50,712 bases of DNA, from IMG/VR virus record IMGVR_UViG_3300009034_000055, positions 1-50,712 of that record. The stretch is one strand, 5' to 3'. The position numbers and the translations under genes were made by a program. Source of the DNA: a virus. The notes beneath the pieces were generated by a model. It was not told where the DNA came from, did not search any database, and was given only the letters and a program-made list of their open reading frames with translations. Below are positions 2,480 to 44,570 of this stretch, piece by piece (the first letter of the stretch is position 1; every line of letters begins with the position of its first letter).

Positions 2480-3472
2480 TTAAAATGGTACATCCGACAA
2501 ACCATCAGCCACTTTTGCACAATCATCCCATTTCGAACACGTAGCACACTTATCAAAAACATCTATGTCTTTACCAAATGTACCGCCCATAGGACAACTA
2601 TCTGTCGGCGTATCCAGTTTCGGTTGCTCAGCCGACCTACTTCGTACCCTTCGCCGTGGTGCATGCATTGCATCTGGCAATACTTGCTCTTCAGTATTCT
2701 CATTACAACTACTTTCATGCTCTTCATTATCACTACTATCACTCTTCCCATAATATATTAAACGAAGTTCATCGTAAGACAATATCTCGATCATATCATC
2801 CAAACAGTATGCCTGCTCCAAAATTTCATCAGAAATCACATAATCACGATCTATTAGCCTATGTCCAATAAATTCAGTTTTTGACTCTTTTGTAAAAGAA
2901 ATTGATTTTCCTATTTCCGCATCAGCAAACGGAATAAATCCACCAGTTTTAGGCGCTCTAGCAAGCGGAGCCAAATGACGCTCCATAAACCAATGTGCAA
3001 CTTCCCAAATCTGCACACCTTTATTTTCTTCTCTATCACTATCATAACAAAGCATATTATAAACCACTCGACGCTTTGGATACTTCAACTTTATCATTTC
3101 TTCATCATATTCACCCATTCGTTTTAGTTCATTTATATGCTCACAAATTGGGCACGGCCTATTATAATTTCTAGCTGGGCATATATATGTACTTTCATTA
3201 GCCCCAATACCCCTATGTACCCACACATCCAAAACATAATTTATATCACCCTTAGTCAACTTTGGATCGTTACTTCCCACAATATACGGCACAATATCAA
3301 TAACATGTGGATCTTTAGTACTCATCTCACATTCCCAAAAAAAGACACCATCTATTTTTCCTTTTTTAAAAAACGATGCCCCCCGCCCTGTAGACTCTCT
3401 ATTCTCATAAGACTCTCGTACACGTTTTACCATCTGCTCCCGCATTCTATCTCGCAAAGACTGATTCGCCAT
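2480..3472 (-). CDS. gp32-like single-stranded DNA-binding protein
   Basis: A 330-residue protein with the T4 gp32 plan: a basic N-terminus (LRDRMREQMVKRVRESYENRE), a core with a zinc site (C98, C107, C110 and H112 in ICPARNYNRPCPICEH), the typical WVHRGIG-N--TYICP context, and a long acidic, low-complexity C-terminal third (SDSSDNEEHESS...) that in this family recruits partners. It also ends in DGLSDVPF, close to the DDDIPF tip of bacterial SSB, which binds host replication and repair proteins. A second Cys cluster (CATCSKWDDCA) lies just before that tip. It coats ssDNA for the polymerase and recombinase. The stop of the UvsY-like gene and the ATG here overlap at 3472, indicating one operon. 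Confidence 0.85.
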   Translation of the reverse strand: MANQSLRDRMREQMVKRVRESYENRESTGRGASFFKKGKIDGVFFWECEMSTKDPHVIDIVPYIVGSNDPKLTKGDINYVLDVWVHRGIGANESTYICPARNYNRPCPICEHINELKRMGEYDEEMIKLKYPKRRVVYNMLCYDSDREENKGVQIWEVAHWFMERHLAPLARAPKTGGFIPFADAEIGKSISFTKESKTEFIGHRLIDRDYVISDEILEQAYCLDDMIEILSYDELRLIYYGKSDSSDNEEHESSCNENTEEQVLPDAMHAPRRRVRSRSAEQPKLDTPTDSCPMGGTFGKDIDVFDKCATCSKWDDCAKVADGLSDVPF

Positions 3473-3960
3473 TATATACCCCCTTTCTTTCTATTCAGTA
3501 TTTGTCTATGCCTATCCATTACACCTTCATCCATAACTTTTCTTGTTTTTTCTGATATATCTACCTCCGAATAATAAGAATTCAGCCACAATTTAACTAA
3601 ATCCTGTAAATTTCCTCTTCGATGCTCAAATGCATCCTTAATCCCTGATAACAACATCGCATCCTTTTTAGCCTCTAGGTACTTACTTTCAATTGCTACA
3701 TATTCTTCATGTGTTATCACGTACTCTCCCACCGAATCATTAGTAATCTTAACATCGTCTCCCAACAATTTAGGATTTCTTCGTACTTCTAAAGATAATC
3801 GGGCCTTAACTTGCTCACACTCCCGTTTTAATTGGTCACGTACCACAACAACTTCTACATATCTATTCGACCAATATACATAACGTGATGCATGCTCCTC
3901 ACACTCCTCTTCTAACATATCTCTATCTATTTCTATATCAGTCTTAAAATTTCGTTCCAT
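3472..3960 (-). CDS. UvsY-like recombination mediator (predicted)
   Basis: A 162-residue, highly charged, largely helical protein (EECEEHASRYVYWSNRYVEVVVVRDQLKRECEQVKARL...). The pattern of a coiled N-terminal half, then RRNPK--GDDVKITNDSV, then EYVAIESKYLEAKKDAMLLSGIKDAFEHRRGNLQDLVKLWLNSYY matches small helical phage proteins that sit between SSB and RecA genes and are likened to UvsY, which loads recombinase onto SSB-coated DNA. This is by pattern and position, not a search. A perfect AGGAGG lies seven bases before the ATG. Its first residues (MERNFKTDIEIDR) and the DNA upstream are a near copy of those of the octapeptide-repeat gene next door. Confidence 0.55.
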   Translation of the reverse strand: MERNFKTDIEIDRDMLEEECEEHASRYVYWSNRYVEVVVVRDQLKRECEQVKARLSLEVRRNPKLLGDDVKITNDSVGEYVITHEEYVAIESKYLEAKKDAMLLSGIKDAFEHRRGNLQDLVKLWLNSYYSEVDISEKTRKVMDEGVMDRHRQILNRKKGGI

Positions 3961-4027
3961 TTTTCCACCTCCTTATTATTTACTATACTTATCGACGGCT
4001 ATCATTAAATACTTTAGCTTTTATTTA
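3929..4027 (-). repeat. Duplicated leader, copy A (upstream region plus first codons)
   Basis: About 99 bp that closely match 4741-4837. The repeat covers the 5' untranslated leader with AAGGAGG, the ATG and the first ten or so codons (MERNFKxDIEI). It includes the conserved stretch ATAGCCGTCGATAAGTATAG. Copy A overlaps the end of the octapeptide-repeat gene by about 14 bases. Two adjacent genes thus carry the same translation start module. Confidence 0.85.
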
Positions 4028-4772
4028 TAGTTTCTAATACTTTAAAAATACAGCTAATCTGCTCCTCAGACAAACAGCTAATCTGATACTCAGACAAACA
4101 ATTAATCTGCTCCCCACTCAACCAATTAATCTGATGCCCAAACAAACAGCATATCTGATGCCCAAACAAACAGCATATCTGATGCCCAGACAAACAGCAT
4201 ATCTGATGCCCAGACAAACAGCGTATCTGATGACCAGTCAACCAACTAATCTGATCCCCAGTCAACCAACTAATCTGATCCCCAGTCAACCAACTAATCT
4301 GACCCTCAGTCAAACAGCTAATCTGACCCTCAGTCAAACAACTAATCTGATTCTCAGTCAAACAGCATATCTGATGACCAGTTAACCAACTAATCTGATA
4401 ACCAGTCAAATACCTAATCTGATAACCAGTCAAACAACTAATCTGATAACCAGTCAAACAACTAATCTGATAACCAGTCAAACTACTAATTTGATGACCA
4501 GTCAAACAACTAATCTGATAACCACTCAACCAACTAATTTGATGATCAGTCAACCAACTAATCTGATCCTCAGTCAAACAGCTAATCTGATCCTCAGTCA
4601 AACAGCATATCTGATGCCCAGTCAAACAGCGTATCTGATGACCAGACAAATGTCTAATCTGTGCCTCAGCCAAATTTATATTATCATTCAACAAAACACA
4701 TCTACATTCATTTATTTTATCTTTTAACTGCTTCCTATATATTTCTATATCAACCTTAAAATTTCGTTCCAT
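4014..4772 (-). CDS. Octapeptide-repeat protein, unknown function
   Basis: A 252-residue protein: an N-terminal segment (1-33, MERNFKVDIEIYR then a helical KQLKDKINECRCVLLNDN), 26 uninterrupted eight-residue units from residue 34 to 241, and a short tail (IFKVLETINKS). The unit is L-[TS]-x-x-Q-I-x-x. L, Q and I are invariant in all 26 full units; positions 3-4 vary (GH, GY, ED, EG, GD, EN, DH, GE, EY, EE) and positions 7-8 vary (SC, SW, CC, RC, NW, RY, SS). It is rich in Cys and Trp. Similar 'LTTxQIxA' octads occur in some bacterial proteins of unclear role; I know no defined function. Perfect ribosome site AAGGAGG, six bases before the ATG. It sits between the DNA polymerase and recombination genes. 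The regular pattern suggests a solenoid with two variable pairs per turn. Confidence 0.8.
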   Translation of the reverse strand: MERNFKVDIEIYRKQLKDKINECRCVLLNDNINLAEAQIRHLSGHQIRCLTGHQICCLTEDQISCLTEDQISWLTDHQISWLSGYQISCLTGHQISSLTGYQISCLTGYQISCLTGYQIRYLTGYQISWLTGHQICCLTENQISCLTEGQISCLTEGQISWLTGDQISWLTGDQISWLTGHQIRCLSGHQICCLSGHQICCLFGHQICCLFGHQINWLSGEQINCLSEYQISCLSEEQISCIFKVLETINKS

Positions 4773-4837
4773 TTATCGCCTCCTTATTATTTACTATACT
4801 TATCGACGGCTATCATTAATACTTTAACTTTTATTTA
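4741..4837 (-). repeat. Duplicated leader, copy B
   Basis: Partner of 3929-4027, carrying the same AAGGAGG leader, start codon and first codons for the octapeptide-repeat gene. Differences are few (for example a one-base length change in the TTAATG run). The remaining 70 bp up to the polymerase stop at 4909 are very AT-rich, and I see no gene in them. Confidence 0.85.
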
Positions 4838-4908
4838 AAAATCATATTATACTCTATATTTCTATTATATATCTATTTTCATTTTTCTGAAAAATTATAC
4901 TCCTCTTA

Positions 4909-7479
4909 TCATATCTTAAACTCACATGCTTTTTTAGTACTCCAAGCACCATCAATATCAGTAATATCAATCTCAATATCAAATGGCACAATAATCCAAG
5001 AAAATCGACGTTTTATCTTACTACATGCTATATCATACGTCGTAGACAAAACATATTCTTGCTCAGGCACGTATAAATCGTATACACCAGAATCATGTAT
5101 CTGCCCAACTATTTTCGTTTTCCATCCCTCTATCTTTCGTATTCTATTAATCTGTATAAGTGACCACAGCAAACAATGAAACGCAGTAGCTTGAAAAGGC
5201 GTATTAATTATTTGGTTATGTGTAAGCACTCCACCACGTCGATGTCCAAACATAGTCTGCACATATCCATATCTTCGATAAAAATCAATAGATTTCTCTT
5301 GCCACGCCCTAAAAACGCTAAATTTATCCCAAAACTTGCGTTCAATCTCCTTCACATGATTTTCAAAATCACAGTACTCTGTACTACGCCCCCCTATAAT
5401 CCCCTTATTCCTTAAATGCTTCCTAACTGTTATATTATCTGCTGTCTTTATCTCAAAGCAGCTATTAAAAATATCAACTGCACACGTTTTATAATAGCTA
5501 CCATAAAATTCAGGGAATACAAAACGACTCTTAATTTCCGAACGCAATATAGAAGTACACTGATTATTATCTAAAGAAAATAAATCCATTGCTTGATCTC
5601 TATGCATATCAGAATCAAGCGTATTTAAATAATCAATTAATACGGGATCTCGTGTATAACATGCAGCAACTCGTACTTCAATACCAGAATAATCCCACTC
5701 TACTAATTTATTTCCCGTGGACGGTATTATACCCCCTCGAATCACTTTTTTAGCTGTTTCGTCTCTTACAGGAACATTCTGAAAATTTGGAAATGACGAA
5801 CTCGACCGATATGTACGTGTGGTGTGTAAATCAAAAAATGGGTGTAATTTATTCTTAAAAGAACATCTTTTATATTGCGCTAAATATGTATCTTTTATTT
5901 TAATTAATGCTTTTAATAACAACAACTTCTTACAATAAGGTAACGATAACTCAAACAATACCTCTTTATCCGTTGATAACGCACCCGTACCCGTCCTCTT
6001 TTTCGTAGTATAGCCCAGCACATCAAACAATAAAACAGACAAATCCTTATGCGATCTGATATTAACATCCCTACCAAATCGAGCACGAAACTTCTTATTT
6101 TCTTCCGACGCTTTTAAAGACAATAAAAGTTTCGTTATCCGCTTCGCTATCTGTACACCCTCTTGCTCATAGTGCTCCATATCAATTTGTATTCCATCTT
6201 TTTGTATATCTGAAAACACAAACAACCCCAAATGAAAAAATCGATACGCCCTATAAAGATCTGCACAGCTCGTTACTTCTTTTATTTGTTCCTTATACAA
6301 TTTATACGTAAACAATGCATCAGCCGCATTATATGTACATAGATCAACTAATGGTGCCTCCCCCAATCGATTAGGACCACCAATATATGCACTTTTCATA
6401 TAAATAGAAATTTTGTCATTATACGGCTCAATGCCCCAACGAACATATGTTTGATATTTTAAACCTATAGATTTATTCTGCGTTTCTAATATATGAGACG
6501 CTATCATAGTATCCCATTCCCAACCTTGTACATTAACATCAAACACTTTAAACGACCATATATCCTCAAATTTTAAATTCTGTGCTATTTTTTTACAATT
6601 GGGATTCTGTAAAATCGTTTGCCACAAATATGTTATAGTATCAAACTGTTCAGAATCCCAATGTTTATATTGGTAAGGAAAGGAGTACCCCTTATCCGCA
6701 CTAATAGCAATGCCAATTGACCATATCATTGCATCAGTATGATATGGCGAAATAGCTGTAGTTTCATAATCAAATGCTATTTGTAAACATTCTTCATCTA
6801 TCTTTTTTAGTATATCAAAAACATCAGTATACTCAGTTAGTACATGTACATTTTCAAATACATTATCAGTAGGTAACGCACCACGATTCAAACACGTCAT
6901 AGCCCATTCTAAATCACTATCAAATATAGACTCTACATTTACATCACCTCTTTTATTTCTATGGAAAATAAAAGACGGATGGTACATAGGCATCACCCAA
7001 GCACCAGTCATTCTATCCGGTATGCAACGCCGCCGCCATCGATCAACAGTAAACTTTTTAAATCGCCCCATATAAAATGATTCAATCGCCCTATCTCCTA
7101 CTAACCAAATAAACTTTGGTTTTAGCTTTTTTATCTCATCATCTACCATAGATTTACAACATTTTAATTCCTTTTTTGTCGGTTGCCTATTATTTGGTGT
7201 ATCGCAACCTACAACAAATAATCTATAAAAATCTTTAGACAAATCTAATCCATAACGCCTAAGTTTTTCTTCAAATAGCCGCTCTATGCCTTTATTCATA
7301 CATTCTAATATGATTAAAATATCACGCTTACCCTCACCAAGAATATGTAACTGTCTTCTATTACCCTGTTTATATAATTCACAAACATCACATGATATAC
7401 TATACATACCTGCCTTCTCCCCCAAAAATAATGTTTGCTGCTTCTGCATTTGTATAGTAAAAAACCCTTTACGTTGCAT
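4909..7479 (-). CDS. Family A DNA polymerase fused to UDG-like and 3'-5' exonuclease domains
   Basis: An 856-residue fusion that would be the phage replicative polymerase. Residues 25-185 resemble a family-4/5 uracil-DNA glycosylase: Cys ligands at C30, C33, C92 and C107 for an Fe-S cluster, the NNRQPTKKELKCC step, and the HPS motif at 167-169. The usual catalytic GEAPG loop is replaced by LECMNKG, so glycosylase activity is doubtful. Residues 230-395 are a DnaQ-type exonuclease (D237/E239 in FDYETT, N301 and D306, Y383/D387). Residues 410-856 are PolA: motif A WDYSG (D596), O-helix-like RSEIK...FVFPEFYG (646-660), motif C QIHDS (H795, D796). Exonuclease and polymerase residues look intact. 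Start supported by AGAGGTG five to six bases upstream. Confidence 0.9.
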   Translation of the reverse strand: MQRKGFFTIQMQKQQTLFLGEKAGMYSISCDVCELYKQGNRRQLHILGEGKRDILIILECMNKGIERLFEEKLRRYGLDLSKDFYRLFVVGCDTPNNRQPTKKELKCCKSMVDDEIKKLKPKFIWLVGDRAIESFYMGRFKKFTVDRWRRRCIPDRMTGAWVMPMYHPSFIFHRNKRGDVNVESIFDSDLEWAMTCLNRGALPTDNVFENVHVLTEYTDVFDILKKIDEECLQIAFDYETTAISPYHTDAMIWSIGIAISADKGYSFPYQYKHWDSEQFDTITYLWQTILQNPNCKKIAQNLKFEDIWSFKVFDVNVQGWEWDTMIASHILETQNKSIGLKYQTYVRWGIEPYNDKISIYMKSAYIGGPNRLGEAPLVDLCTYNAADALFTYKLYKEQIKEVTSCADLYRAYRFFHLGLFVFSDIQKDGIQIDMEHYEQEGVQIAKRITKLLLSLKASEENKKFRARFGRDVNIRSHKDLSVLLFDVLGYTTKKRTGTGALSTDKEVLFELSLPYCKKLLLLKALIKIKDTYLAQYKRCSFKNKLHPFFDLHTTRTYRSSSSFPNFQNVPVRDETAKKVIRGGIIPSTGNKLVEWDYSGIEVRVAACYTRDPVLIDYLNTLDSDMHRDQAMDLFSLDNNQCTSILRSEIKSRFVFPEFYGSYYKTCAVDIFNSCFEIKTADNITVRKHLRNKGIIGGRSTEYCDFENHVKEIERKFWDKFSVFRAWQEKSIDFYRRYGYVQTMFGHRRGGVLTHNQIINTPFQATAFHCLLWSLIQINRIRKIEGWKTKIVGQIHDSGVYDLYVPEQEYVLSTTYDIACSKIKRRFSWIIVPFDIEIDITDIDGAWSTKKACEFKI

Positions 7480-9060: not shown

Positions 9061-10119
9061 TTAATTAAGCTCCCCCATTTCTTTCAAATAATTCGGTAAA
9101 ATTTGATTAAACGTGTATTCTGAACACAAGTTACCTATATGTACCGTACCTTTAAAATACTCTGTTACCGCATTAATAAGACTATCAACTAGTTCATATG
9201 CTGGCTGCATCTCTGACAATCTATGCCTTTTATGAAATTGATATAGCATATTACTAGCTTTAATAATCTTATTTCTGTCCACCGCTCGTAACTCTCCTTC
9301 TTTGCTACTATATATAGACAATAGTCTATCAGCAGCTATTTTAGCGATCTCATTTGTAGGTTCTAAAATAGCTCTATTCTCACTACGTTTTTTTGGTTCG
9401 TTTTTTAAAAGATGTAAGCATCTGCTTTTGTAACCGTGATTATTGCCTACATAAGAATTCCAAAAGAATACTGCTACATTCATATTACGTAATGTCTCTT
9501 TAGTCTTAATCATTGGTAGATACTCATTATCCAAAGCCTCAAGTGCGTGCTTATCTATCGCAATTTTTATTTGCTCTTGTGTTAATATAGGTATCTCCTT
9601 ATATCCAACAGTCAACACCTTACTGATAATATCAATGGCTCGTTTGGCTACTGTTGATTTATGTTGTGCTTGTGGCTGTGGTAAACGTGTACCATCTATT
9701 CTTATGTCCTTCCAATACTGCATAATTTCTAATGCTTCAACTTTAACTTTTCGATGTTGTACATTACTTGGGTTTTCTAATAATTTCAACAACTTATGGT
9801 GACTTATTCTATAACTACGAACTGATTTTTCTTCTTTTGTTATTAACACACCAATTTTGCAAAGCATTTTAATGGCCATAACTTGTTTATGATAAGCTAA
9901 TCCTGTGTTTTCTGTTCGTTGCTTTATATCGCTACAGAAATAGTTATTCTGTAATTTACCTAAAATACGAAAATGTTGCTCCTCCATTACAAAATTTGTA
10001 AGAATAATTGCTGCTTCTACTCCAAATATTTTAATTGCATTTATGTTAAGTGGTAAATAAGGCTTATCAAACAGAATACCATAAGCCAATCTTTCGTTTT
10101 TGTAAACACCATAATCCAT
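9061..10119 (-). CDS. Replisome-organiser-like winged-helix protein
   Basis: A 352-residue protein, first gene of the replication operon. The N-terminal ~120 residues (ILFDKPYLPLNINAIKIFGVEAAIILTNFVMEEQ...NTGLAYHKQVMAIKMLCKIGVLITKEEKSVRSYRI) have the helix-turn-helix and wing layout of phage replication initiators (DnaD/O-protein type). The middle is low in recognisable motifs and the C-terminal ~90 residues are helical. Its place directly upstream of DnaB and beside an origin-like region suggests it binds the origin and loads the helicase; this is inference. GGAGG lies 13 bases before the ATG, a long spacing, so the true start could differ slightly. Confidence 0.55.
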   Translation of the reverse strand: MDYGVYKNERLAYGILFDKPYLPLNINAIKIFGVEAAIILTNFVMEEQHFRILGKLQNNYFCSDIKQRTENTGLAYHKQVMAIKMLCKIGVLITKEEKSVRSYRISHHKLLKLLENPSNVQHRKVKVEALEIMQYWKDIRIDGTRLPQPQAQHKSTVAKRAIDIISKVLTVGYKEIPILTQEQIKIAIDKHALEALDNEYLPMIKTKETLRNMNVAVFFWNSYVGNNHGYKSRCLHLLKNEPKKRSENRAILEPTNEIAKIAADRLLSIYSSKEGELRAVDRNKIIKASNMLYQFHKRHRLSEMQPAYELVDSLINAVTEYFKGTVHIGNLCSEYTFNQILPNYLKEMGELN

Positions 10120-10566: not shown

Positions 10567-10720
10567 TAACTATAGTTATACATATTGCAAAATATTTTTA
10601 TTGGTTTTAAAAGGAGGGATTTCTAGATACGATTATTAAAGATTATTTTATTTTTTAAAACTATTTATTAAAATTAATATAAAAAATTAAAATTAAATTA
10701 ATCTAGAAAACTATTTATTT

Positions 10721-10787
10721 ACTACGCTCACTTCGTTCACTACGTAAATTATAGTTTTACTACGTTCACTTCGTTCACTAGTAAAAC
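10721..10787. repeat. Direct repeat pair with inverted flanks
   Basis: The 22-base sequence around ACTACG[C/T]TCACTTCGTTCAC occurs at 10721-10742 and again at 10759-10780 with one difference. The second copy is framed by GTTTTACTA (10754-10762) and TAGTAAAAC (10779-10787). Similar TTCACTTCGTTCAC motifs are common in mobile DNA; here they may be protein-binding sites within the origin-like region. Confidence 0.7.
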
Positions 10788-10807
10788 TAGTTCATTCTTT
10801 TTTAATA

Positions 10808-10966
10808 TTAAGAAAAGAAAAAAAATACAAAAGAAAGAAGATTAATAAAGAAAGAGAATTACAAAAGAAAGAAAATTAAAAATAAAAGAAAGAAAAGATA
10901 TAAGAGAAAGAAAAATTATAGAAGAAAGCAAAGTATAAAAGGAAAAAATGAAAAAGTCAAATTCAG
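10808..10966 (+). other. Polypurine (A/G) tract of about 160 bases
   Basis: The plus strand is almost entirely A and G, built from loosely repeated AAAGAAAGAA units with isolated pyrimidines. Such strand-asymmetric, easily melted DNA is seen at unwinding elements and triplex-prone sites. No reading frame of any length is present. Confidence 0.7.
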
Positions 10967-11376: not shown

Positions 11377-12225
11377 TCAGACATTTTGTCCAAAAATATC
11401 GATTTTAAGATTTCGTACATCATCATCTAACATATCGGCAGGGTCGCCATAAGGTAAAATGAGTAATTCAGTTTTCTCTATTCCCGGTAAGGTGTCAAAA
11501 CACTGACACAACTTTTCTGCTTGTTCTACAGCTTGAGGCTCACTGTCATACATCACAAAAACATTACGTATATGTTTTTTGCTAAGTTGGTAAACTTGTT
11601 CCTTTGTGTACTCAAGACCGAAAGTTGCAACCGTACCAGCCCCCATACGCCATACGTCAGTAATACCTTCTACAATTACAACGGTATCGCCCACGGTATC
11701 AATATTATATAAACAGTGCTTTATTGGTATTACTGCGTTATTGTTAGAACAATGTCTGTATTGTCTAGTAAACACATTAACAGAACTAAAATTAACTATC
11801 TGATCGTTTAGTATTACTGGAATAATAATACTAAATTTGTGAGAGGAAGTGTTGTTACAGAATTTAAGTTTGTACTTACGTTTTATTTCTTCCAGATTAA
11901 ATCGGCGTTTAATTAGGTAGTCGTAGTGGTATTGTTCCCATTTATCCATCATATATTTTGGAAATTCACACACTTCTTTTTTTGATATTACATTATTAAT
12001 AAGTATGTTAGAATGAGTGTTTTCTATTTTACCAATTAATTTTTCTATTGGTCCCTTTTCTCCACAAATCCAACAATTGAACCACTTTGATTCTAAATTA
12101 ATGCCCAAATGGTTTGAGTGATCAATGCAAAAGGGACATTGAATGTTCACCCATCCAAAAGTAACATTCTTACCTTGCTCATAGTATATAATATTCTTTG
12201 CTTTTAAGTATGTAATTATATCCAT
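11377..12225 (-). CDS. DnaG-type primase
   Basis: A 282-residue primase that would make RNA primers for lagging-strand synthesis with the DnaB-like helicase. The N-terminal zinc finger is CPFC (C30, C33), His at 36 or 39, then CWIC (C51, C54), with the typical GWVNIQCPFC...H-LGIN---KWFNCWICG layout. A TOPRIM core follows, with VVIVEGITDVWRMG (catalytic Glu) and VFVMYDSEPQAVEQAEKL (acidic pair). It is shorter than bacterial DnaG and lacks an obvious C-terminal helicase-binding domain, as in many phages. The ATG at 12225 is chosen (AGGTGG five bases upstream) over in-frame GTGs just before it. Confidence 0.85.
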   Translation of the reverse strand: MDIITYLKAKNIIYYEQGKNVTFGWVNIQCPFCIDHSNHLGINLESKWFNCWICGEKGPIEKLIGKIENTHSNILINNVISKKEVCEFPKYMMDKWEQYHYDYLIKRRFNLEEIKRKYKLKFCNNTSSHKFSIIIPVILNDQIVNFSSVNVFTRQYRHCSNNNAVIPIKHCLYNIDTVGDTVVIVEGITDVWRMGAGTVATFGLEYTKEQVYQLSKKHIRNVFVMYDSEPQAVEQAEKLCQCFDTLPGIEKTELLILPYGDPADMLDDDVRNLKIDIFGQNV

Positions 12226-12294
12226 AAACACCACCTGATCACTATCTATATTATTTACTTAATATTAAATAATACTTCACAATTACTTATTTTA

Positions 12295-14493
12295 TTACAT
12301 CCAGTCCATATCCATGTACAAACAAACGCGCTCACCGAAATGTGATATTAAGTAAGGATGACTAGAGTCAAAAAAATCATAAATTATTATGTCTTCTTTG
12401 TCTTTTGTTTTGCGTAAACCCCTTCCTACTGTTTGTAGTGTGGCGATTTCACTTTTACCACCTGCTCCGTTTATTAGTATATTTAAAGAGGGGATATCAA
12501 CACCCTCTTTCCAGACCGCTGTAGCCACAACACACTTTATTTTTTTTGAAATTAGTAGTTCCCGTATTTGTTCTCTATCGTCACCTTCTGTAGCTCCTCG
12601 TACAAAATGTATTATAAAGCTGTGTAACTCTTTTGCCATGTTTGTTAATATTTCACCATGTTCAATATGACGAACAATAATTAATACCGTTTCTCCTTTG
12701 TCCGTGTGTTGTTTAGCTATTTCTATTATTGCTTTATTTCTTGTTTTATTTTCCGTTACGCCAAGTTTATACACTTCTGCGTATTTATATTGTTCTCTAA
12801 TATTATGGTTATGTGGCATTTTTCTAAATACAATTTTTGGCTTAGCAAGAATAGCTTTTTTTTGTGCGTCTATGATTGTTAAGTCATCAATTAGTGGACC
12901 TACATATCCTTCCAAAGCTAATTTATTTTCTGTATGCTGTGGTAATGTAGCAGTGACACCAATACGAAAAGGAGCTAATATACTACCTAACACTTTTGCG
13001 TATGAACCAGTGAATGAACTTATATGATGGCATTCGTCAATAAAAACAGCATGATAGTAATCAATATATTTAGTGTGTACTTTTACATATGATTGTATTG
13101 TGGCAAGTGTTATTCGGCCTATTTCTTTTTTACCACCACCGAATACGCCGATGGTGTCTGATGGAAAACCGCATTCTATTAATTTGCTGTGTATCTGTTG
13201 TAGTAATGTGTTAGTATGACATAGAAATAATATATTATGTTCTTTTGGAATTGTAGACATAATTCCCAGAATTATGATCGTTTTACCACTATTATGTACA
13301 ACTATGCCATTAGCAACAAAATTTCTATATGGATCTTTACATATAATATCGTATGTATCTTCTATCCCAACGAAAGTAATGGATTTAACCTTGGAAAACT
13401 GGGGGTTACCTTGACCAAAGTAGGAATAATCTGAATGAAGTTGCTTATGTGTAGTTATTAATATCTTTTCTAAATTCAACACATCATTATTGTTATGATT
13501 TCCATCTTTATGGTGTATATGGTACTTATTAGGATTAACAAATTTTAATTTTTTGATCTCTACTGTATTATTTTGTAATATTTTTTTGTACTCATTTAAT
13601 GATATTTGATTTATATAAGATTCGTAAACCGCCCTATGGTATTCTACAACTTTATCCCAACCTATAGCATAGCTCCCTGATTTTATTTTTCTTGCATATG
13701 GATGATACCATAGCCTTCCTACAACATTATCCGGTACTTTTTTTTGTTTTGATTTATTATTTTTAGTAGCTTTTAAAGTGTCAACCATTATATTATCAAA
13801 TTTGGTTAGATATAAAAGCTTTTTCCATCCTTTTGATGTAAGAAACAAATGATCTTTTGTAGCTTTTATACAACAGTTATTATCTAATTCAAGTAAGTAT
13901 AGTTCCTTTTTACCAGAATAAACGACATCTTTAATTTCGTGCAGCAATATTTTGTTTTTATCATGTTTAAAACTTCGGACTTTCGTTACTATACATTCAT
14001 CAAAAGCCGGACCGTTTGTTTGACCAGATTTTCCATGATACTTTAAATATAGATGTCTTATTGTTACATACGATCCCTTTTTTGCCCTATTTATATTTAT
14101 ATGAGTATCTCCTGAAATACACCCAGTTGGTGCTTTTATTACACCTCTTTGTACGTTTATTGCAGATTGCATTAAACGTAGTTGATAATCCCTAAACTCT
14201 ATACCATCTATTTTAGGAGTAGTTACACATTTAATTTGTAAATCAACATCAATCCATTGTATTTTTATATCATTTTGTTCACAATAAGAAATAATTTTAT
14301 CTTTAAATCCATACAAAGTATAACGACTACCATTATTAGTAAAAATTAAAGATTTTGAATACACCTTTCTTTCTTTTTTATATCTACCTTGTCGCCAATA
14401 TTCTTTTTCATATTGCAATATCGGTGCTAATAATTTATGCCCACGGTTGATTTGGCAATAAGTGGCAGCGACAGTCGTTATTTTGATGTCCAT
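12295..14493 (-). CDS. SF2 DNA helicase (UvsW-like) interrupted by an intein
   Basis: A 732-residue precursor; removing the intein (residues 125-401) leaves a 455-residue helicase. The intein splits Walker A: VIKAPTG before it and SGKTIIIL after it rejoin as APTGSGKT. Later motifs are intact: FIDECHH (motif II), GVTAT (III), KCVVATAVWKEGVDIPSLN (V) and QTVGRGLRKT (VI). UvsW-type helicases unwind R-loops and branched intermediates and switch origin modes in T4, which suits this recombination-rich phage. The ATG at 14493 has AGGAG six bases upstream. The helicase cannot bind ATP until splicing occurs. Confidence 0.87.
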   Translation of the reverse strand: MDIKITTVAATYCQINRGHKLLAPILQYEKEYWRQGRYKKERKVYSKSLIFTNNGSRYTLYGFKDKIISYCEQNDIKIQWIDVDLQIKCVTTPKIDGIEFRDYQLRLMQSAINVQRGVIKAPTGCISGDTHININRAKKGSYVTIRHLYLKYHGKSGQTNGPAFDECIVTKVRSFKHDKNKILLHEIKDVVYSGKKELYLLELDNNCCIKATKDHLFLTSKGWKKLLYLTKFDNIMVDTLKATKNNKSKQKKVPDNVVGRLWYHPYARKIKSGSYAIGWDKVVEYHRAVYESYINQISLNEYKKILQNNTVEIKKLKFVNPNKYHIHHKDGNHNNNDVLNLEKILITTHKQLHSDYSYFGQGNPQFSKVKSITFVGIEDTYDIICKDPYRNFVANGIVVHNSGKTIIILGIMSTIPKEHNILFLCHTNTLLQQIHSKLIECGFPSDTIGVFGGGKKEIGRITLATIQSYVKVHTKYIDYYHAVFIDECHHISSFTGSYAKVLGSILAPFRIGVTATLPQHTENKLALEGYVGPLIDDLTIIDAQKKAILAKPKIVFRKMPHNHNIREQYKYAEVYKLGVTENKTRNKAIIEIAKQHTDKGETVLIIVRHIEHGEILTNMAKELHSFIIHFVRGATEGDDREQIRELLISKKIKCVVATAVWKEGVDIPSLNILINGAGGKSEIATLQTVGRGLRKTKDKEDIIIYDFFDSSHPYLISHFGERVCLYMDMDWM
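13291..14121 (-). mobile_element. Intein with HNH homing endonuclease
   Basis: A 277-residue intein. It begins with Cys (CISGDTHI, block A) and ends VVHN (block G: penultimate His, terminal Asn) before a Ser as the +1 extein nucleophile. TKDHLFLTSKGW is a block-B-like element. The central region has an HNH-type endonuclease signature, HIHHKDGNHNNND-LNLE, with a further HKQLH. All splicing residues look present, so it should be active. The nuclease would cut intein-free alleles of the same Walker A site, allowing spread between phages. Confidence 0.88.
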
Positions 14494-31493: not shown

Positions 31494-32168
31494 TTATACC
31501 GGTGAATTAGTTATCGTAAATTTTGCCCCCGCTATATCCGTATCACCACCGTAAACACCCTCATAATTAAATAATACTAACACTTTCGTTCCTTGCACAA
31601 AACCCAAACTATTAACTTCCCAAGCCCCATTAACTGTATTACTCTGTGTTGTTTGGTACTTCGTTGTTCTATCGTCCTTATTAAGTATATCAATATTACA
31701 TAATGTATTAGTTATTACATTTCCATTTTTATCTACACACGTGTCTGATAATGTCGAATATGGTTCTACAATCCAAATCTCAGTAGTATCTACATTTGCA
31801 TCTGTATACCCACCAAAACATAAAGCTGCGCTCGTAGTACCACAACCAGCTAAATAACCTTTAGCTTCATTTAAACTACTCGTGGTTGCCCATAAAGATC
31901 CGTCCCAAATCTCAGTAGTGGCTACACGTGCTCCTGTACTTCCACCAAAACATAAAGCTGCGCTCGTAGTACTACAGCCAGCTAAAAAACGCTTAGCTTC
32001 ATTTAAACTACTCGTAGTTGCCCACGAAGTACCATTCCATATCTCAGTAGTATCTACATTTGCATTTATATACCCACCAAAACATAAAGCTGCACTCGTA
32101 GTACCACAACCAGCTAAACCATATTTAGCTTCATTCAAATTACTCGTAGTTGCCCACGCTGCATCCAT
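31494..32168 (-). CDS. Three-blade kelch-like protein with shared C-terminal domain
   Basis: A 224-residue protein with three 44-residue units (WATTSSLNEAK--LAGCGTTSAALCFGGYT-A-V-TTEIW-G), each with the GG and W of kelch/galactose-oxidase blades. The rest (about 135-224: LSDTCVDKNGNVITNTLCNIDILNKDD...WEVNSLGFVQGTKVLVLFNYEG) is a beta domain also found at the end of the broken repeat gene upstream; it looks like a carboxypeptidase-regulatory/transthyretin-type fold. AAAGG seven bases before the ATG, with surrounding bases matching the start of the giant gene at 37170. Three blades are half a propeller, so it may dimerise. Confidence 0.65.
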   Translation of the reverse strand: MDAAWATTSNLNEAKYGLAGCGTTSAALCFGGYINANVDTTEIWNGTSWATTSSLNEAKRFLAGCSTTSAALCFGGSTGARVATTEIWDGSLWATTSSLNEAKGYLAGCGTTSAALCFGGYTDANVDTTEIWIVEPYSTLSDTCVDKNGNVITNTLCNIDILNKDDRTTKYQTTQSNTVNGAWEVNSLGFVQGTKVLVLFNYEGVYGGDTDIAGAKFTITNSPV

Positions 32169-32211
32169 AACAAACCTTTATGTCTACTTAGTACACATAA
32201 ATATTAATCCA

Positions 32212-34149
32212 TTAGGTAGGAGAATTTGTTATCATAAATTCCATGCCTGCTATATCCGTATCTTCCCCATAAGTACCTTCATAGCTAAATAACGCTAACA
32301 TTTTCGTGCCCTGTACAAAACCTAAACTACTAACTTCCCAAGTACCATCAGTCGTATTACTCTGTGTTGTTTGATATAATGTACCTAAATCGTCCTTATT
32401 AAATATATCAATATTACACAAAGCACTAATTATGGCATCACCATTCTTATCTGTACATATACCTGATAGTATCGAATAGACATCCACTACCGGTATAGAT
32501 AAATCATCAGACGTTAATATACTATCAGCAGTTATTTTTGACAATGCTTTTAATATACTATCAAATACAACTACATCGTCACTGTAAACTTTAAAATTGA
32601 TCTTGTGATATAAATCGGTTAATTTAACAAGATTATCAACTAGAACTACTACTTTTATTAACTTCGATTGCACACTATCAAATATAGCTATTTCATTAGT
32701 AAATATTTTTAATAAAGACTTCCTCGCTTTATCCGATACTAATATTTCGTCAATAAATACTTTTAATATCGTTTTTCTTATTGTGTCTGATATTGGTACT
32801 TCATCAGTAAGTACTTTATTAATAATTGTTTGTATTAGTGCTACTATGCTATCAGATAGATTTATACCATCAGCAAATACTTTTAACAACTCTTTCTTTA
32901 CAACATCAGATGTTAGAATTTCATCAGCAATTATTTTTAATGCGCATTTTCTTACCGTATCAGATACTAATATATTGTCAGTCATCGTTTTTAATAACGC
33001 TTTTCTTGCCGTATCAGATACTACTATATTATCAGTAAGCACTTTACTGATAATTATTTGTATTAGTGCTGTTATACTGTCAGATATACTAACGTTGTCA
33101 GTAAATACTTTTAGTAGCGCTTTTTTTGCCGTATCAGATATAACTATATTATCAGTAAGCACCTTACTAATAAGTATTTGTATTAGTGCTGTTATACTGT
33201 CAGATAGGTCTATATTATCAATAAATACTTTTAATAAGGCTTTTATTGACGTATCAGATATAACTATATCATCAGTAAATATTTTTAGTAGACTCTTCCC
33301 TATATTATCTGATACAGATACCTCATCAATAATTAATTTTAGTAGTGCTTTTCCTACACTATCAGATATACTAATGTTGTCAGTAAATACTTTTAGTAAG
33401 GCTTTTCCTACACTATCAGCTATACTAATGTTGTCAGTAAATACTTTTAATAACGCTTTTCTTGCCGTATCAGATACTACTATATTATCAGTAAGCACCT
33501 TACTGATAATCGTTTGGATGAGAACTATTATACTGTCAGATATACCAATATTATCAGTAATCGTTTTTAATAAACCCTTCCTTATATCATCAAATGTATG
33601 TACATTATCAGTAAATATTTTTAATAGCGCTTTTCTTACGCTATCAGATATAGTTATATCATCAGTAAATACTTTTAGTAAGGCTTTTCCTACACTATCA
33701 GATATACTAATGTTGTCAGTAAATACTTTTAGTAAGGCTTTTCCTACACTATCAGATATACTAATGTTGTCAGTAAGCACCTTACTAATAAGTATTTGTA
33801 TTAGTGCTGTTATACTGTCAGATATACTAACGTTGTCAGTGAATACTTTTAGTAGACTCTTCTTTGCATTATCTGATACAAATATTTCATCAATAAATAC
33901 TTTTAATACCGTTTTTCTTATTGTATCAAATGCGTGCACATCATCAGTAATTAATTTTAATAGTGCTTTCTTTGCGTCATCAGATGTACGTACATCATCA
34001 GTAATTAATTTTAATAGTGCTTTCTTTGCGTCATCAGATGTACGTACATCATCAGTAATTATTTTTAATGCCAATTTTTTTGCTGTATCAGATATGGTTA
34101 TATTGTCAGTAATCGCTTTTAATAGCGTTTTTCTTACTGTATCAGATAC
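32212..34149 (-). pseudogene. Repeat adhesin, third fragment (18-residue repeats plus C-terminal domain)
   Basis: Continuation of the giant repeat gene in another frame. It is open from the repeat edge at 34149 (VSDTVRKTLLKAITDN...) to 32212. About two dozen units of 18 residues (KALLKVFTDN-S-SDSV-) are followed by a degenerate junction module (SVQSKLIKVVVLVDNLVKLTDLYHKINFKVYSDDV) and the same C-terminal beta domain as the three-blade protein. The only in-frame start near its 5' end is a TTG without a ribosome site, so it is not an independent gene as it stands. The reading break lies at 34149/34150, the edge of the 119-bp repeat. Confidence 0.6.
34031..34149 (-). repeat. 119-bp direct repeat, copy 1
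   Basis: As far as I can see by eye, identical to 34408-34526. It encodes two to three 18-residue units. The break in reading frame lies exactly at its upper end. Confidence 0.85.
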
Positions 34150-34526
34150 GTAAATATTTTTAATAGTGCTTTCCCTATGCTATCAAATATACTGACATTG
34201 TCAGTGAATACTTTTAATAGGCTCTTCTTTATATTATCTAATATAAATATTTCATCGGTAAATACTTTTAGTAACGCTTTCCTTGTATTATCGAGTACTA
34301 ATATATTATCAGATAATACTTTACTAATAATCGTTTGGATTAGTGCTATTATACTATCAGACACTAATATTTCATCAATAATTGATTTTGATAGTACTTT
34401 TCTTGTATCATCAGATGTACGTACATCATCAGTAATTATTTTTAATGCCAATTTTTTTGCTGTATCAGATATGGTTATATTGTCAGTAATCGCTTTTAAT
34501 AGCGTTTTTCTTACTGTATCAGATAC
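34134..34526 (-). pseudogene. Repeat adhesin, second fragment (18-residue repeats)
   Basis: A segment of about 130 codons in its own frame between the two breaks, open from 34526 to a stop at 34134, made entirely of the 18-residue units (SDTVRKTLLKAITDNIT, KSIIDEILVSDSI, KALLKVFTDEIFILDNI). It has no plausible start or ribosome site. Relative to the first fragment it lies in the +1 frame and the third fragment lies in the -1 frame, so no single frameshift event would join all three. Confidence 0.6.
34408..34526 (-). repeat. 119-bp direct repeat, copy 2
   Basis: Partner of 34031-34149, with the other frame break at its upper end (34526/34527). Recombination between the copies would delete 377 bp. 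Confidence 0.85.
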
Positions 34527-37170
34527 TGTTAGTAAATACTTTTAGTAACTTTTTCTTTATATTATCTGATATAAATATTTCATTGGTAAATATTTTTAAT
34601 GCGGATTTTCTTACTGTATCAGATACATTAACGTTGTTAGTAAATACTTTTAGTAACTTTTTCTTTATATTATCTGATATAAATATTTCGTCAATAAATA
34701 CTTTTAGTAGCGCTTTTCTTGTGTCATCAGATATACTAACGTTATCAGTAAGTACTTTATTGATAATTGTTTGTATTAGCGTTACTATGCTATCAGATAA
34801 GTTTATATCATCAGTAAATACTTTTAATAGCTTCTTCTTTATATTGTCTAATGTAAATATTTCGTCAATAAATACTTTTAGTAGCGCTTTCCTTGCATCA
34901 TCAGATATACGTATATCATCAGTAAATATTTTTAATGTAAATTTTCTTGTCGTATCAGATGCTAATATTTCATCACTATATATTTTGCAATTAGTTGTAT
35001 AATATTGATCTGTTATCTCATTGATAGTATTGAACCTACGGCAAATTAATTGTTTTGTTGCAGAATCCAAAATATGGAGTAATGTATCTTCTAACTTAAT
35101 AAATGCAGGTACTATACCCCAAATTTCTGTTGTAGCAACAAAAGCACCCGTGTCTCCACCAAAACTCAACGCTGCGCTTGTTGTTCCACAACCTGCTAAT
35201 CCGTACCGTGCTTGATTTAGACTACTCGTTGTCGCCCATGTAGAACCATCCCAAATCTCTGTAGTTGCAAAATTATCGCCCGTACCCCCACCAAAACTCA
35301 ACGCTGCGCTTGTTGTTCCACAACCCGCTAAATAATACCGTTCTTGATTCAAACTACTCGTGGTTGCCCAAGTAGAACCATTCCAAATTTCTGTAGTTGC
35401 AACAAAAGCACCCGTATACCCGCCAAAACTCAACGCTGCGCTTGTTGTTCCACAACCTGCTAATCCAAATCGTGCTTGGTTTAGACTACTCGTGGTTGCC
35501 CATATAGAACCATCCCAAATTTCTGTTATAGCAACAATCGCTCCAGTATGCCCACCAAAGCTTAAAGCTGCGCTTGTTGTTCCACAACCCGCTATTCCAA
35601 ATCGTACTTCACTTAAACTACTCGTGGTTGCCCAAGTAGAACCATCCCAAATTTCAGTTGTGGCAACAGCGGCACCTGTATATCCTCCAAAACACAAAGC
35701 TGCGCTTGTTGTTCCACAACCCGCTAATGCTTGTCGTGCTTCATTCAAACTACTCGTGGTTGCCCAAGTAGAACCATCCCAAATTTCAGTTGTAACAACA
35801 GCAGCACCTGTATTTCCACCAAAACTCAACGCTGCGCTTGTTGTTCCACAACCCGCTAATACAAATCGTGCTTGATTCAGACTACTCGTAGTTGTCCAGG
35901 CCCTGCTTATAATCGTCTGTATTGTGCTTTTTATAATATCAGATATGATTATATCATCAGTAAATACTTTTAATAGTGCTTTTTCTACACTATCAGATAC
36001 AACTATATCATCAATAATTGATCTTAATAGCGCTTTTTCTACACTATCAGATACAACTATATCATCAATAATTGATCTTAATAGCGTTTTCCTTGTATCA
36101 TCAGATACTAATAAAATATTAATAAGTACTTTTGATAGTGTTTTTTTTGCTACATCGGATATCAAAATTATATCAGTTTGTGTTTTATAGTTAATTATAT
36201 AACGTTGATCAGTTAATTTACTAATATTATCAAGAAAAAGTAGAAATTTCAATAGATTGTATTTTTCTGTATCGGTAATACCGATACCACTAACTCTATT
36301 GTATGTCAATTGTTTCGTTGATAAATCTGTAATGTCGATTAATGTGTCCGTTACATTTTTTATTTGAGGTATATTATACCAAATTTCTGTTGTAGCAACA
36401 AAAGCACCTGTATTTCCACCAAAACTCAACGCTGCGCTTGTTGTTCCACAACCCGCTAAATAATACCGTTCTTGATTCAAACTACTCGTGGTTGCCCAAG
36501 TAGAACCATTCCAAATTTCTGTTGTAGCAACAGCAGCACCCGTGTCTCCACCAAAACACAAAGCTGCGCTTGTTGTTCCACAACCTGCTAATCCGTACCG
36601 TGCTTGATTTAGACTACTCGTTGTCGCCCATGTAGAACCATCCCAAATCTCTGTTATAGCAACAATCGCTCCAGTATGTCCGCCAAAACTCAACGCTGCG
36701 CTTGTTGTTCCACAACCTGCTAATACAAATCGTACTTCACTTAAACTACTCGTGGTTGCCCAAGTAGAACCATTCCAAATTTCTGTTGTAGCAACAAAAG
36801 CACCCGTGTCTCCACCAAAACACAAAGCTGCGCTTGTTGTTCCACAACCTGCTAATCCTTGTCGTGCTTCATTCAAACTACTCGTGGTTGCCCAAGTAGA
36901 ACCATTCCAAATTTCTGTAGTTGCAGCAGGAGCACCTGTATGTCCGCCAAAATTCAACGCTGCGCTTGTTGTTCCACAACCCGCTAATGTTTCTCGTGCT
37001 TCATTCAGACTACTCGTGGTTGCCCAAGTAGAACCATTCCAAATTTCTGTAGTTGCAGCAGGAGCACCCGTGTCTCCACCAAAACACAAAGCTGCGCTTG
37101 TTGTTCCACAACCCGCTAATACAAATCGTGCTTGATTCAGACTACTCGTAGTTGCCCATGCTAAACCCAT
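34519..37170 (-). CDS. Giant repeat adhesin, first fragment: two six-blade kelch blocks plus 18-residue repeats
   Basis: 883 residues. Order: six 44-residue kelch-like blades (about 5-268), a junction module (DTLIDITDLSTKQLTYNRVSGIGITD...LTDQRYIINYK), five 18-residue units, six more blades, a second junction module (DTLLHILDSATKQLICRRFNTINEITDQYY), then more 18-residue units until the frame ends at 34519. Six blades make a closed propeller. Blade differences sit at the same places (two residues before LAGCG, the residue before F-GG, and after GG), while TTSSLN, LAGCGTTSAAL and TTEIW are constant. Probably a tail or capsid fibre binding host or environmental glycans. AAAGG six bases before the ATG. 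The natural product was likely about 1,650 residues. Confidence 0.65.
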   Translation of the reverse strand: MGLAWATTSSLNQARFVLAGCGTTSAALCFGGDTGAPAATTEIWNGSTWATTSSLNEARETLAGCGTTSAALNFGGHTGAPAATTEIWNGSTWATTSSLNEARQGLAGCGTTSAALCFGGDTGAFVATTEIWNGSTWATTSSLSEVRFVLAGCGTTSAALSFGGHTGAIVAITEIWDGSTWATTSSLNQARYGLAGCGTTSAALCFGGDTGAAVATTEIWNGSTWATTSSLNQERYYLAGCGTTSAALSFGGNTGAFVATTEIWYNIPQIKNVTDTLIDITDLSTKQLTYNRVSGIGITDTEKYNLLKFLLFLDNISKLTDQRYIINYKTQTDIILISDVAKKTLSKVLINILLVSDDTRKTLLRSIIDDIVVSDSVEKALLRSIIDDIVVSDSVEKALLKVFTDDIIISDIIKSTIQTIISRAWTTTSSLNQARFVLAGCGTTSAALSFGGNTGAAVVTTEIWDGSTWATTSSLNEARQALAGCGTTSAALCFGGYTGAAVATTEIWDGSTWATTSSLSEVRFGIAGCGTTSAALSFGGHTGAIVAITEIWDGSIWATTSSLNQARFGLAGCGTTSAALSFGGYTGAFVATTEIWNGSTWATTSSLNQERYYLAGCGTTSAALSFGGGTGDNFATTEIWDGSTWATTSSLNQARYGLAGCGTTSAALSFGGDTGAFVATTEIWGIVPAFIKLEDTLLHILDSATKQLICRRFNTINEITDQYYTTNCKIYSDEILASDTTRKFTLKIFTDDIRISDDARKALLKVFIDEIFTLDNIKKKLLKVFTDDINLSDSIVTLIQTIINKVLTDNVSISDDTRKALLKVFIDEIFISDNIKKKLLKVFTNNVNVSDTVRKSALKIFTNEIFISDNIKKKLLKVFTNSI
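35107..35898 (-). repeat. Kelch block 2: six tandem 132-bp units
   Basis: Six near-identical 132-bp units, each one 44-residue blade. Several units match units of block 1 more closely than their neighbours, as expected after recombination between the blocks. Confidence 0.85.
36367..37158 (-). repeat. Kelch block 1: six tandem 132-bp units
   Basis: Six units of 132 bp from the tryptophan codon at 37158. The same unit is present three times in the smaller gene at 31494-32168. Confidence 0.85.
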
Positions 37171-37172
37171 AA

Positions 37173-38429
37173 TTAACCTTTATTTACATATTCTTTATAC
37201 CCATAAAATATATTTTTTTCTTTATCTACATGCATACATTGTATTGATGTATCTAATATAGATTTTAAACCGTCTACACAAGAAAATTGTTGTCCAAAAT
37301 AAGTATCTTCTGTGATTTGTATTTTTCCTGCAATTTCTATTGTTTTATACCAAGGAAATGAGATTTTCGAAAATATATCGGTTTTTATTAACGTACATCC
37401 AGAACACATTACAATCGGATTTTCTATAAGGTCGCCAATTTTAAAGTTTACGCGAATCGGTCTACCATTTTTTTCCACCATAGAACATGATTCTAGTGGG
37501 TAATATTTTCTATAATAAAACCCCCCTGCCATATCATACCCTTGTTTAATATGCTCCATTAATTTACATAGTGCGTCAGAAGGTAATACTACATCATCAT
37601 CTACAAAAAATATATAATCAAACCCATTTTCTAATGCCTTTTTCACAGCAAAATTACGTCCATCGGCAACAGAAAAGCCATACGGCTGTTCCATCACAAC
37701 GGACATTGCTGCTGGAAATTGTACTTTTGAAAAATCTGTGACATTAGTACATTCTTTAGTTCTATGTAATGCAACAATTAAAATTTTTTCAGTATTCTTA
37801 TTCAATATAATTTTTGCTACTGGATCGTCCACATTTTCTTTTGTATCGTAATTGATTTGGTTACTATTACCACCTACACCATCTTTTATACTATATTTTT
37901 CAGGATGATGTAATTGAAAATCTGTGTCCCCATACTTTAATTGTGTGTGTAATGCCATTATAATTTTTTCCCACTCTCGTATCTCTCTAGTACGTTCTTG
38001 TGCTGTTTTTTGTTGAAGCGTATTATGATATACTTTTCTATCTTTGATATTCTTAAGAGTTTTTAACTTTAGTTCTGCCCTCCTTTTATTTGCCCCCTCA
38101 TCAAGACCAGCAATGTAAGCTTCTACTCCATTTATATCAAGTAACAATCCTTCAATTTCATTGTTTAACTGTTTATTGTCAAAACTAAGTTCAATTAACG
38201 CCTGTACATGTACAGCCTGTTCCCCAATTGCCTGCCAATATTTAGAATCTACTGTAGGCAAAACAGCATCACTTAATACACTATTTTCCATTTCGTAGTT
38301 CGAACGAAATAAAGATCTAGTAGCAAAACGATGCTCAAATTTCGTTTTTTGCGCCTGTAAAAAATCAATATCCGATGAACTAATAAGAGTTTTATCCTTA
38401 AATAATTCTGGTACTCCAATTACATCCAT
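37173..38429 (-). CDS. GT2-like glycosyltransferase with long coiled N-terminal domain
   Basis: 418 residues. Residues 1-190 are mostly helical and charged (FKDKTLISSSDIDFLQAQKTKFEHRFATRS...IEGLLLDINGVEAYIAGLDEGANKRRAELKLKTLKNIKDRKVYHNTLQQK), resembling a structural or oligomerisation segment. From about 215 a GT-A fold begins: ILIVALHRTKE, AMSVVMEQPYGFSVADGRNFAVKKALENGFDYIFFVDDDVVLP with the metal-binding DDD, then GGFYYRKYYP and EDTYFGQQ. It would transfer a sugar from a nucleotide donor. It lies between fibre-like genes and the adhesins, so the virion or its fibres are likely acceptors (inference). Confidence 0.72.
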   Translation of the reverse strand: MDVIGVPELFKDKTLISSSDIDFLQAQKTKFEHRFATRSLFRSNYEMENSVLSDAVLPTVDSKYWQAIGEQAVHVQALIELSFDNKQLNNEIEGLLLDINGVEAYIAGLDEGANKRRAELKLKTLKNIKDRKVYHNTLQQKTAQERTREIREWEKIIMALHTQLKYGDTDFQLHHPEKYSIKDGVGGNSNQINYDTKENVDDPVAKIILNKNTEKILIVALHRTKECTNVTDFSKVQFPAAMSVVMEQPYGFSVADGRNFAVKKALENGFDYIFFVDDDVVLPSDALCKLMEHIKQGYDMAGGFYYRKYYPLESCSMVEKNGRPIRVNFKIGDLIENPIVMCSGCTLIKTDIFSKISFPWYKTIEIAGKIQITEDTYFGQQFSCVDGLKSILDTSIQCMHVDKEKNIFYGYKEYVNKG

Positions 38430-38487
38430 AATTTTGCTTGCTCCTCTTGTAATACTAATAGTGCTTGCTCCTCTACTTCCACCTTAA

Positions 38488-38841
38488 TTATATTTTATTA
38501 TCGACCCACGTTTGTCCACTATTAATATCAAATGGTTGTGATATTAATGTATGTGTAAAACCAAATTCACATACAACCTCCTTTACAATTTCCGCTGGAT
38601 ACATACTCTGCCCAATAGTATTCAGTTCTTCTATTGTGCTCTCATATACTTTCCCCACATTATTACTTTTCCAGTTATCAATGTCACTATCAGGACCATT
38701 AAGTTCCATTAAATTTGTATACCTTGCTGTATACTGCCCCGATGCTTTTATTTTACATGTAACAGTTTGTGGTAACACTGTTGTGCAATTCTCAGCACCG
38801 GCAACACTTGTCGAACTTTGGAATACAAAATACCTACTCAT
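38488..38841 (-). CDS. Small structural-type protein, unknown
   Basis: 117 residues, beta-rich and low in charge: YFVFQSSTSVAGAENCTTVLPQTVTCKIKASGQYTARYTNLMELNGP, later EVVCEFGFTHTLISQPFDIN. No catalytic motif. AGAGGTG eight bases before the ATG, two bases after the upstream gene's stop. The context of fibre genes suggests a virion or fibre accessory protein. Confidence 0.55.
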   Translation of the reverse strand: MSRYFVFQSSTSVAGAENCTTVLPQTVTCKIKASGQYTARYTNLMELNGPDSDIDNWKSNNVGKVYESTIEELNTIGQSMYPAEIVKEVVCEFGFTHTLISQPFDINSGQTWVDNKI

Positions 38842-38843
38842 AA

Positions 38844-39296: not shown

Positions 39297-39429
39297 TACT
39301 CTTTCTCCTTACTAAATTATTATTAATATACTCCATTTCCACCCTTGTAAAACCTCTCACCCCCTGCCCTGGCACACCTTATCTAAATACAAACTTTAGT
39401 TTACCAGATAAATTTATACCACACTTAAT

Positions 39430-40842: not shown

Positions 40843-40845
40843 ATC

Positions 40846-44537: not shown

Positions 44538-44570
44538 ACGCTTCTCTGCTCCTCTGCTACAATCTTTACA

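Follow-up and report, generated by a model that had tools for sequence, protein, structure and literature searches.

An octapeptide-repeat gene on the minus strand (4014–4772) of an IMG/VR virus contig is an accessory cassette that encodes a predicted solenoid of short helices. The contig was analyzed over its whole length of 50.7 kb, hereafter called the window. By analogy with known phage proteins, and not by homology, the product could quite possibly, though short of probably, be a tunable protein-binding factor in counter-defense. The octad unit (ALTTAQ) and repeat-tuned counter-defense (Tweety gp54) were both already known.

The gene is a 252-aa ORF with an ATG start and AAGGAGG 5' of the start codon. 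Residues 34–241 form an array of 26 units of 24 bp (4050–4673, minus strand) of the type L-[TS]-x-x-Q-I-x-x, and only approximately 33 N-terminal and 11 C-terminal residues lie outside it. The first-pass annotation had described 26 uninterrupted octads, and the ORF, a unit table, and TRF (24-bp period, 26.0 copies, 85% matches, 0 indels) all bear this out. L1, Q5, and I6 are invariant in 26/26 units, as that annotation had stated, and its assignment of T or S to position 2 holds in 23 of the 26 units and fails in three (Ala once, Phe twice). The two variable dipeptides with small residue sets that it had recognized are likewise seen in the unit table, with G (17), E (8), or D (1) at position 3; H (10), Y (6), D (4), G (2), E (2), A (1), or N (1) at position 4; S (15), C (5), R (4), or N (2) at position 7; and C (16), W (7), H, S, or Y, with zero Ala, at position 8. 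The protein is net acidic (pI 5.6), and the array contains 0 Lys, 4 Arg, and 15 acidic residues, giving a net charge of −11. A Pfam search identified the octad as the ALTTAQ repeat (PF20080, E = 3.3e-21), and the score of 75.1 bits is so far beyond the curated cut-off of 26.4 that a chance match is excluded. The Ala before the unit's Leu (A-L-T-T-A-Q), typical of PF20080 but not required by its profile, is absent from the window array; this is a difference of subtype, and membership rests on the profile score.

The surrounding genes, all on the minus strand, belong to replication and recombination. Upstream lies a DNA polymerase A with exonuclease and UDG domains (4909–7479; Pfam DNA_pol_A, E = 2.8e-47; UDG, E = 3.4e-9), and the other genes are UvsY-like (3472–3960; phrog_1069, E = 6.5e-19; phrog_231 UvsY-like, E = 0.003), a gp32-like single-strand DNA-binding protein (SSB) (2480–3472; Pfam gp32, E = 4e-8), and a RecA/UvsX-like recombinase (1404–2465; Pfam RecA, E = 4.9e-33; phrog_97 UvsX-like). 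These Pfam and PHROG matches agree with the neighbors named in the first-pass annotation. Unremarked there was a direct repeat of approximately 105 bp on both sides of the octad gene, found by local alignment and as repeat families. In its upstream copy (4720–4837, minus strand; alignment, repeat families D2–D4) lie the octad gene's leader, AAGGAGG, start codon, and first 13 codons. In its downstream copy (3908–4027, minus strand; alignment and repeat families), the octad stop codon is followed by the UvsY-like gene's own leader, ribosome site, and initial codons. A 32-bp core is present at exactly two places in the window. The octad gene opens with a duplicate of the UvsY-like 5' end (MERNFKTDIEID versus MERNFKVDIEIY), so that its first 13 codons, together with its ribosome site and leader, are copies of the UvsY-like ones. 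In a comparison of the octad protein with UvsY, no full-length UvsY-like domain was found, the common part being the first 13 or so codons. Recombination between the repeat copies would delete approximately 811 bp, that is, the octad gene, and would leave the UvsY-like gene intact. A pattern scan of relatives that share this recombination module covered L003, L004, and a further 80 loci retrieved through RecA, 32 of which matched both polymerase and UvsY; not one of these 82 loci contained an octad array. Given these array-free loci and the flanking repeats, the octad gene is an accessory cassette. Neither the empty site, searched by leader sequence in other viral contigs, nor a relative with another version of the gene, sought by protein and leader searches, was found. 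Of 16 polymerase–UvsY intervals read in relatives, 14 carry a clamp-loader gene; the search for a clamp loader in the window gave nothing convincing (best E = 0.03), and the octad gene occupies the polymerase–UvsY site (4014–4908) held by that gene in most relatives read. In L003 (8001–11673), the polymerase gene is split, with a CxxxCxxC protein, perhaps a radical SAM protein, between both parts.

Initial protein searches with the octad gene against named phages and IMG/VR returned nothing. Because the repeat weakens BLAST and seed searches, degenerate DNA patterns were scanned in their place to find octad arrays. Stand-alone arrays were identified in at least seven other phage contigs, namely L008/L017 (a single contig broken within the array), L012, L013, L020, L023, L025, L026, and L037; a match in MT835757, when read through, was a different repeat. 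These phage arrays share a common framework, with Trp at position 8 in a fraction of 0.25–0.75 of units and mostly Gly, Arg (CGG), or Cys (TGT) in the others. Most of them carry G, R, or Y where the window array has C; the richness in Cys noted earlier is not a general trait. Their charge per unit ranges from −0.46 to +0.42 and is not consistently basic. Unit number differs sharply between L026 (14 units) and L008/L017 (at least 27+8), even though their flanks are near-identical (99.3% over 1,490 bp and 100% over 4,156 bp), and these cousins support the earlier proposal that unit number can change by recombination. The related proteins of L012 and L013 have approximately 19 and 4 units. Bacterial PF20080 proteins, here from Duganella, Methylomonas, Fokinia, and Omnitrophica genomes, share the unit L-T/S-x-x-Q-I-x-x but are mostly huge (approximately 460–5,000 aa), whereas the phage type is stand-alone, 150–300 aa long, and has Trp at position 8 in alternation with C, G, or R. 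Ala occupies that position in a fraction of 0.44–0.73 of bacterial units, with Omnitrophica L036 intermediate at 0.26, and is missing there from every stand-alone phage array longer than four units. A conserved C-terminal domain with the motif WHTCxTTHCIAGW follows the octads in L012, L013, L017, L025, and L026; it corresponds to phrog_31265 in L012 and L026, and in L025 it has diverged further (SPMCIAGHT). The L012 octad gene adjoins a YqaJ exonuclease gene and has an ERF gene nearby. Also near it is a second short-repeat gene (L012:4186–4839), with a hexapeptide VGE[W/G]A[T/K] and a TGG/GGG switch, whose product is perhaps a left-handed beta-helix.

The fold of the array was predicted with AF2. 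Given the full-length protein and no alignment, it produced a beta model of low confidence (pLDDT 46) that had no good match among known folds. This model was replaced by a run on a 33-row alignment of the window and 32 other segments from phage and bacterial loci, with the octad repeats placed in register. Units 4–19 (4218–4601, minus strand) were modeled as 16 short helices for 16 units, each of 4–6 residues and extending from position 3 to 7 or 8 (pLDDT 96.9, pTM 0.87). The array is accordingly predicted, with good internal support, to be a short-helix solenoid; the first-pass annotation had suggested a solenoid, and the model agrees. Judged from the helix positions, L1 and I6 would form the solenoid core, and T/S2 and Q5 would lie at the sites of a helix-capping box under established helix-capping rules. 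Positions 3, 4, 7, and 8 hold the variable residues, with Trp at position 8 alternating with small residues. Searched against the PDB, the octad profile matched 9zem HeliScrew4 (E = 1.6e-30), apparently a designed protein by its name and regularity. It has LTPEQIAA-type octads in register and is helical by its name, a likeness of profile and name and not of superposed geometry. In Foldseek, the nearest solved folds were mesothelin chains (E of approximately 0.01–0.04, prob 0.51–0.99, TM 0.24–0.45). Mesothelin is a right-handed solenoid of short helices that binds CA-125 (PMC10035497). Unlike the octad protein, it is an animal cell-surface protein with irregular repeats, and homology is not claimed. 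The top viral fold match, A0A6J7X2V1, is an uncharacterized protein from an uncultured phage (E = 2.6e-4, 30% identity). Leucine-rich-repeat matches in the PDB were rejected as periodic L/x patterns of other length, and no such repeat was among the best 50 Foldseek matches.

Two phage proteins offer precedents for this layout. The tetrapeptide array of mycobacteriophage Tweety gp54 was described in the Tweety genome paper as 'consistent with selection for variation' (PMC2884959). Later reviews (PMC9262239, PMC8549241) report that gain or loss of gp54 repeats lets Tweety evade two prophage defenses, Phrann gp29/gp30 and MichelleMyBell, making gp54 a tunable counter-defense protein that is set by repeat number. 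The earlier statement that such octads are 'without an established function' stands for the octad itself but not for the layout, for which Tweety gp54 has been tested and acts in counter-defense. Like the octad genes, gp54 is accessory and combines short tandem units with a fixed framework and few variable positions. Its repeat number varies among relatives, as it does among the octad cousins L026 and L008/L017. Unlike the window protein, it is built of AAxx tetrapeptides unrelated in sequence to LTxxQIxx, and its N- and C-terminal regions are large, with a spacing that has been proposed to matter. When recomputed, its array showed invariant Ala codons with a switch among G (GGG), W (TGG), and Q (CAG) and another between S and Y (AGC/TAC); gp38 of an M. 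abscessus prophage has a GGG/CGG/TGG switch. A gp54 query of named phages gave matches in Mycobacterium phages only. The second precedent, bbp36 of Bordetella phage BPP-1, was reached via weak tblastn matches of octad arrays in named phages. Its annotated variable region 2 (VR2) is a 24-bp array encoding the octapeptide GTATAGYR/ES, with a length of 330 bp in BPP-1 and 498 bp in BMP-1, and downstream in the operon are an exonuclease, a gp2.5-like SSB, and a DNA polymerase. The replication and recombination setting emphasized by the first-pass annotation recurs in both L012 and BPP-1. VR2 has been described since 2002–2004 (as cited in PMC2884959), and that article presents it as varying between isolates, dispensable, and resembling Tweety gp54. 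It shares with the octads a 24-bp/octapeptide unit, two fixed variable positions, an early operon, and variation in unit number, but GTATAG[YR/ES] is unrelated in sequence and is attached to a longer N-terminal region. What the octad genes have in common with gp54 and bbp36 lies in architecture, setting, and codon pattern; the repeats are not homologous.

The main rivals of the counter-defense reading are an unselected young ORF and a recombination scaffold. Under the first, in-frame expansion of 24 bp by slippage or recombination would have produced a little-used ORF that took its start from the duplicated leader and has no selected function. The low third-position divergence within the array, as expected of recent turnover, is consistent with this, as are the duplicated leader, the absence of the gene from relatives, and the richness of this phage in other repeats. 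However, the codons for L1, Q5, and I6, kept in all 26 units, vary only synonymously (TTG/TTA, CAG/CAA, ATT/ATA), whereas positions 3, 4, 7, and 8 show mostly residue-changing variants, and the framework codons are under purifying selection. The unrelated phage L023 has units near-identical to those of the window (LTGYQISW, LTGDQIRC, LTESQISC) in other codons, with five of the eight codons of LTGYQISW differing synonymously. A probability of 5e-6 for the LTGYQISW match is no test, because this unit was picked for being identical. Among identical framework residues, a codon different from that of the window is used in 56% in L023 and in 65–98% in other phages. The coding frame of the array has 0 stops and the other five have 1–33. 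At the sequence level, codons and frames argue against pure junk, as well as against an iteron role for the DNA. The high-confidence predicted fold and the stand-alone arrays kept in other phages also speak against an unselected ORF. The window array by itself shows no amino-acid excess (15 extra residue types versus 7 extra synonymous codon types), a point against the counter-defense reading. In six young arrays, approximately 1 of about 20 variant codons is synonymous where about 5 would be expected. This excess is suggestive only, because variants spread by duplication are not independent, and the figure of 0.003 attached to it leaves out one synonymous variant in L020. We consider the young ORF rather unlikely, though a serious competitor.

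A scaffold role in recombination would have a UvsY-type N-terminal motif (DIEIxxxxL) dock to UvsX, SSB, or polymerase while the solenoid recruits or spaces partners. The duplicated first 13 codons, the position between polymerase and UvsY, and the company of cousin arrays (YqaJ exonuclease and ERF in L012; exonuclease, SSB, and polymerase in BPP-1) all point in this direction. Nevertheless, the 82 related loci have this recombination module but no array in the pattern scan, and D12 of the motif has become Y. The duplicated stretch includes the leader and ribosome site, which explains retention of the N-terminus without docking, and the octad arrays of other phages lack the UvsY-type N-terminus. 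A scaffold is, in our judgment, unlikely.

The first-pass annotation had named nucleic acid as one of three possible ligands and had drawn a comparison with the ordered recognition of TALE or PPR repeats. A modular reader of this kind, or one resembling PUF repeats, would fit the fixed framework with two variable dipeptide positions, and PUF proteins do appear low in the Foldseek list (E = 0.2–1.3). Yet the array is acidic and without Lys, and the phage arrays share no charge bias, which makes nucleic-acid reading very unlikely; Foldseek also gave no significant match to nucleic-acid readers. Neither the binding nor the code is supported. A DNA-level element, such as an iteron-type origin or a recombination site whose coding frame is incidental, is suggested by tandem 24-bp repeats in a replication region and by a weak lambda-O-like initiator candidate (9061–10119; phrog_9773, E = 0.02), but we regard it as highly improbable given that cousins keep the protein unit while changing its codons, that the stops spare only the coding frame, and that the array has its own ribosome site. 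The huge size of most bacterial octad proteins would favor an adhesin of their kind, on the virion or on a surface. We hold this to be equally improbable, since this short protein lies in a replication operon, distant from the structural genes, and phage and bacterial octads differ at position 8.

Elsewhere in the window, long ORFs at 16–50 kb read as tail and other structural genes by reading alone. Several other repeats were observed. A perfect 11-bp tandem repeat (ATACACACCCT x 9.9) lies at 331–439, and AT-rich short repeats at 10656–10955, between the O-like initiator candidate and a primase (11377–12234), mark a possible replication origin. Three repeat-rich proteins of 224, 620, and 883 aa (31494–37170) comprise 44-residue kelch-like units (WATTSSLNEAR..LAGCGTTSAALCFGG..ATTEIW) and 18-residue units (KALLKVFTDNISISDSV), corresponding to 132-bp and 54-bp DNA repeats, and are probably hypervariable virion or adhesin proteins. 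A DNA helicase (12295–14493) contains an intein (Intein_splicing, E = 8.5e-10) that matches phage HNH endonuclease families. An ORF cluster at 37173–45611 reads as glycosyltransferases, perhaps for DNA or virion modification. A promoter scan was uninformative (7 found versus 7.6 expected).

Under the counter-defense reading, an accessory cassette in the early region would make a free-standing, net acidic, short-helix solenoid that binds one or more proteins encoded by the host or by prophages resident in it. Through recombination inside the 24-bp array, the number and order of units would change, and the changed units would retune both what the solenoid binds and the distance between the protein ends. 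The likeliest use of such a protein would be counter-defense, as with Tweety gp54 against a prophage abortive-infection system. The protein partner, the counter-defense role, and the setting of specificity by unit number and order are what we infer here. More speculatively, and on balance doubtfully, early-region 'tuning' genes may form a class across many kinds of phages, in which several unrelated solenoid folds combine an invariant framework with one or two switch positions, array recombination retunes the binding of defense proteins, and a repeat-flanked cassette is gained or lost whole. Its members would include helical LTxxQIxW octads, AAxx, GTATAGxx, QLxx, and perhaps VGExAx, and the switch codon would often be TGG/GGG/CGG or TGG/TGT (Trp to Gly, Arg, or Cys). 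Linking octad (ALTTAQ) proteins and VR2 to Tweety gp54 makes this reading of their function directly testable through unit number. If true, these phages would possess an evolvable protein-binding module that they retune by recombination, which may aid the finding of counter-defense genes and supply a natural scaffold for binding whose module is eight residues long.
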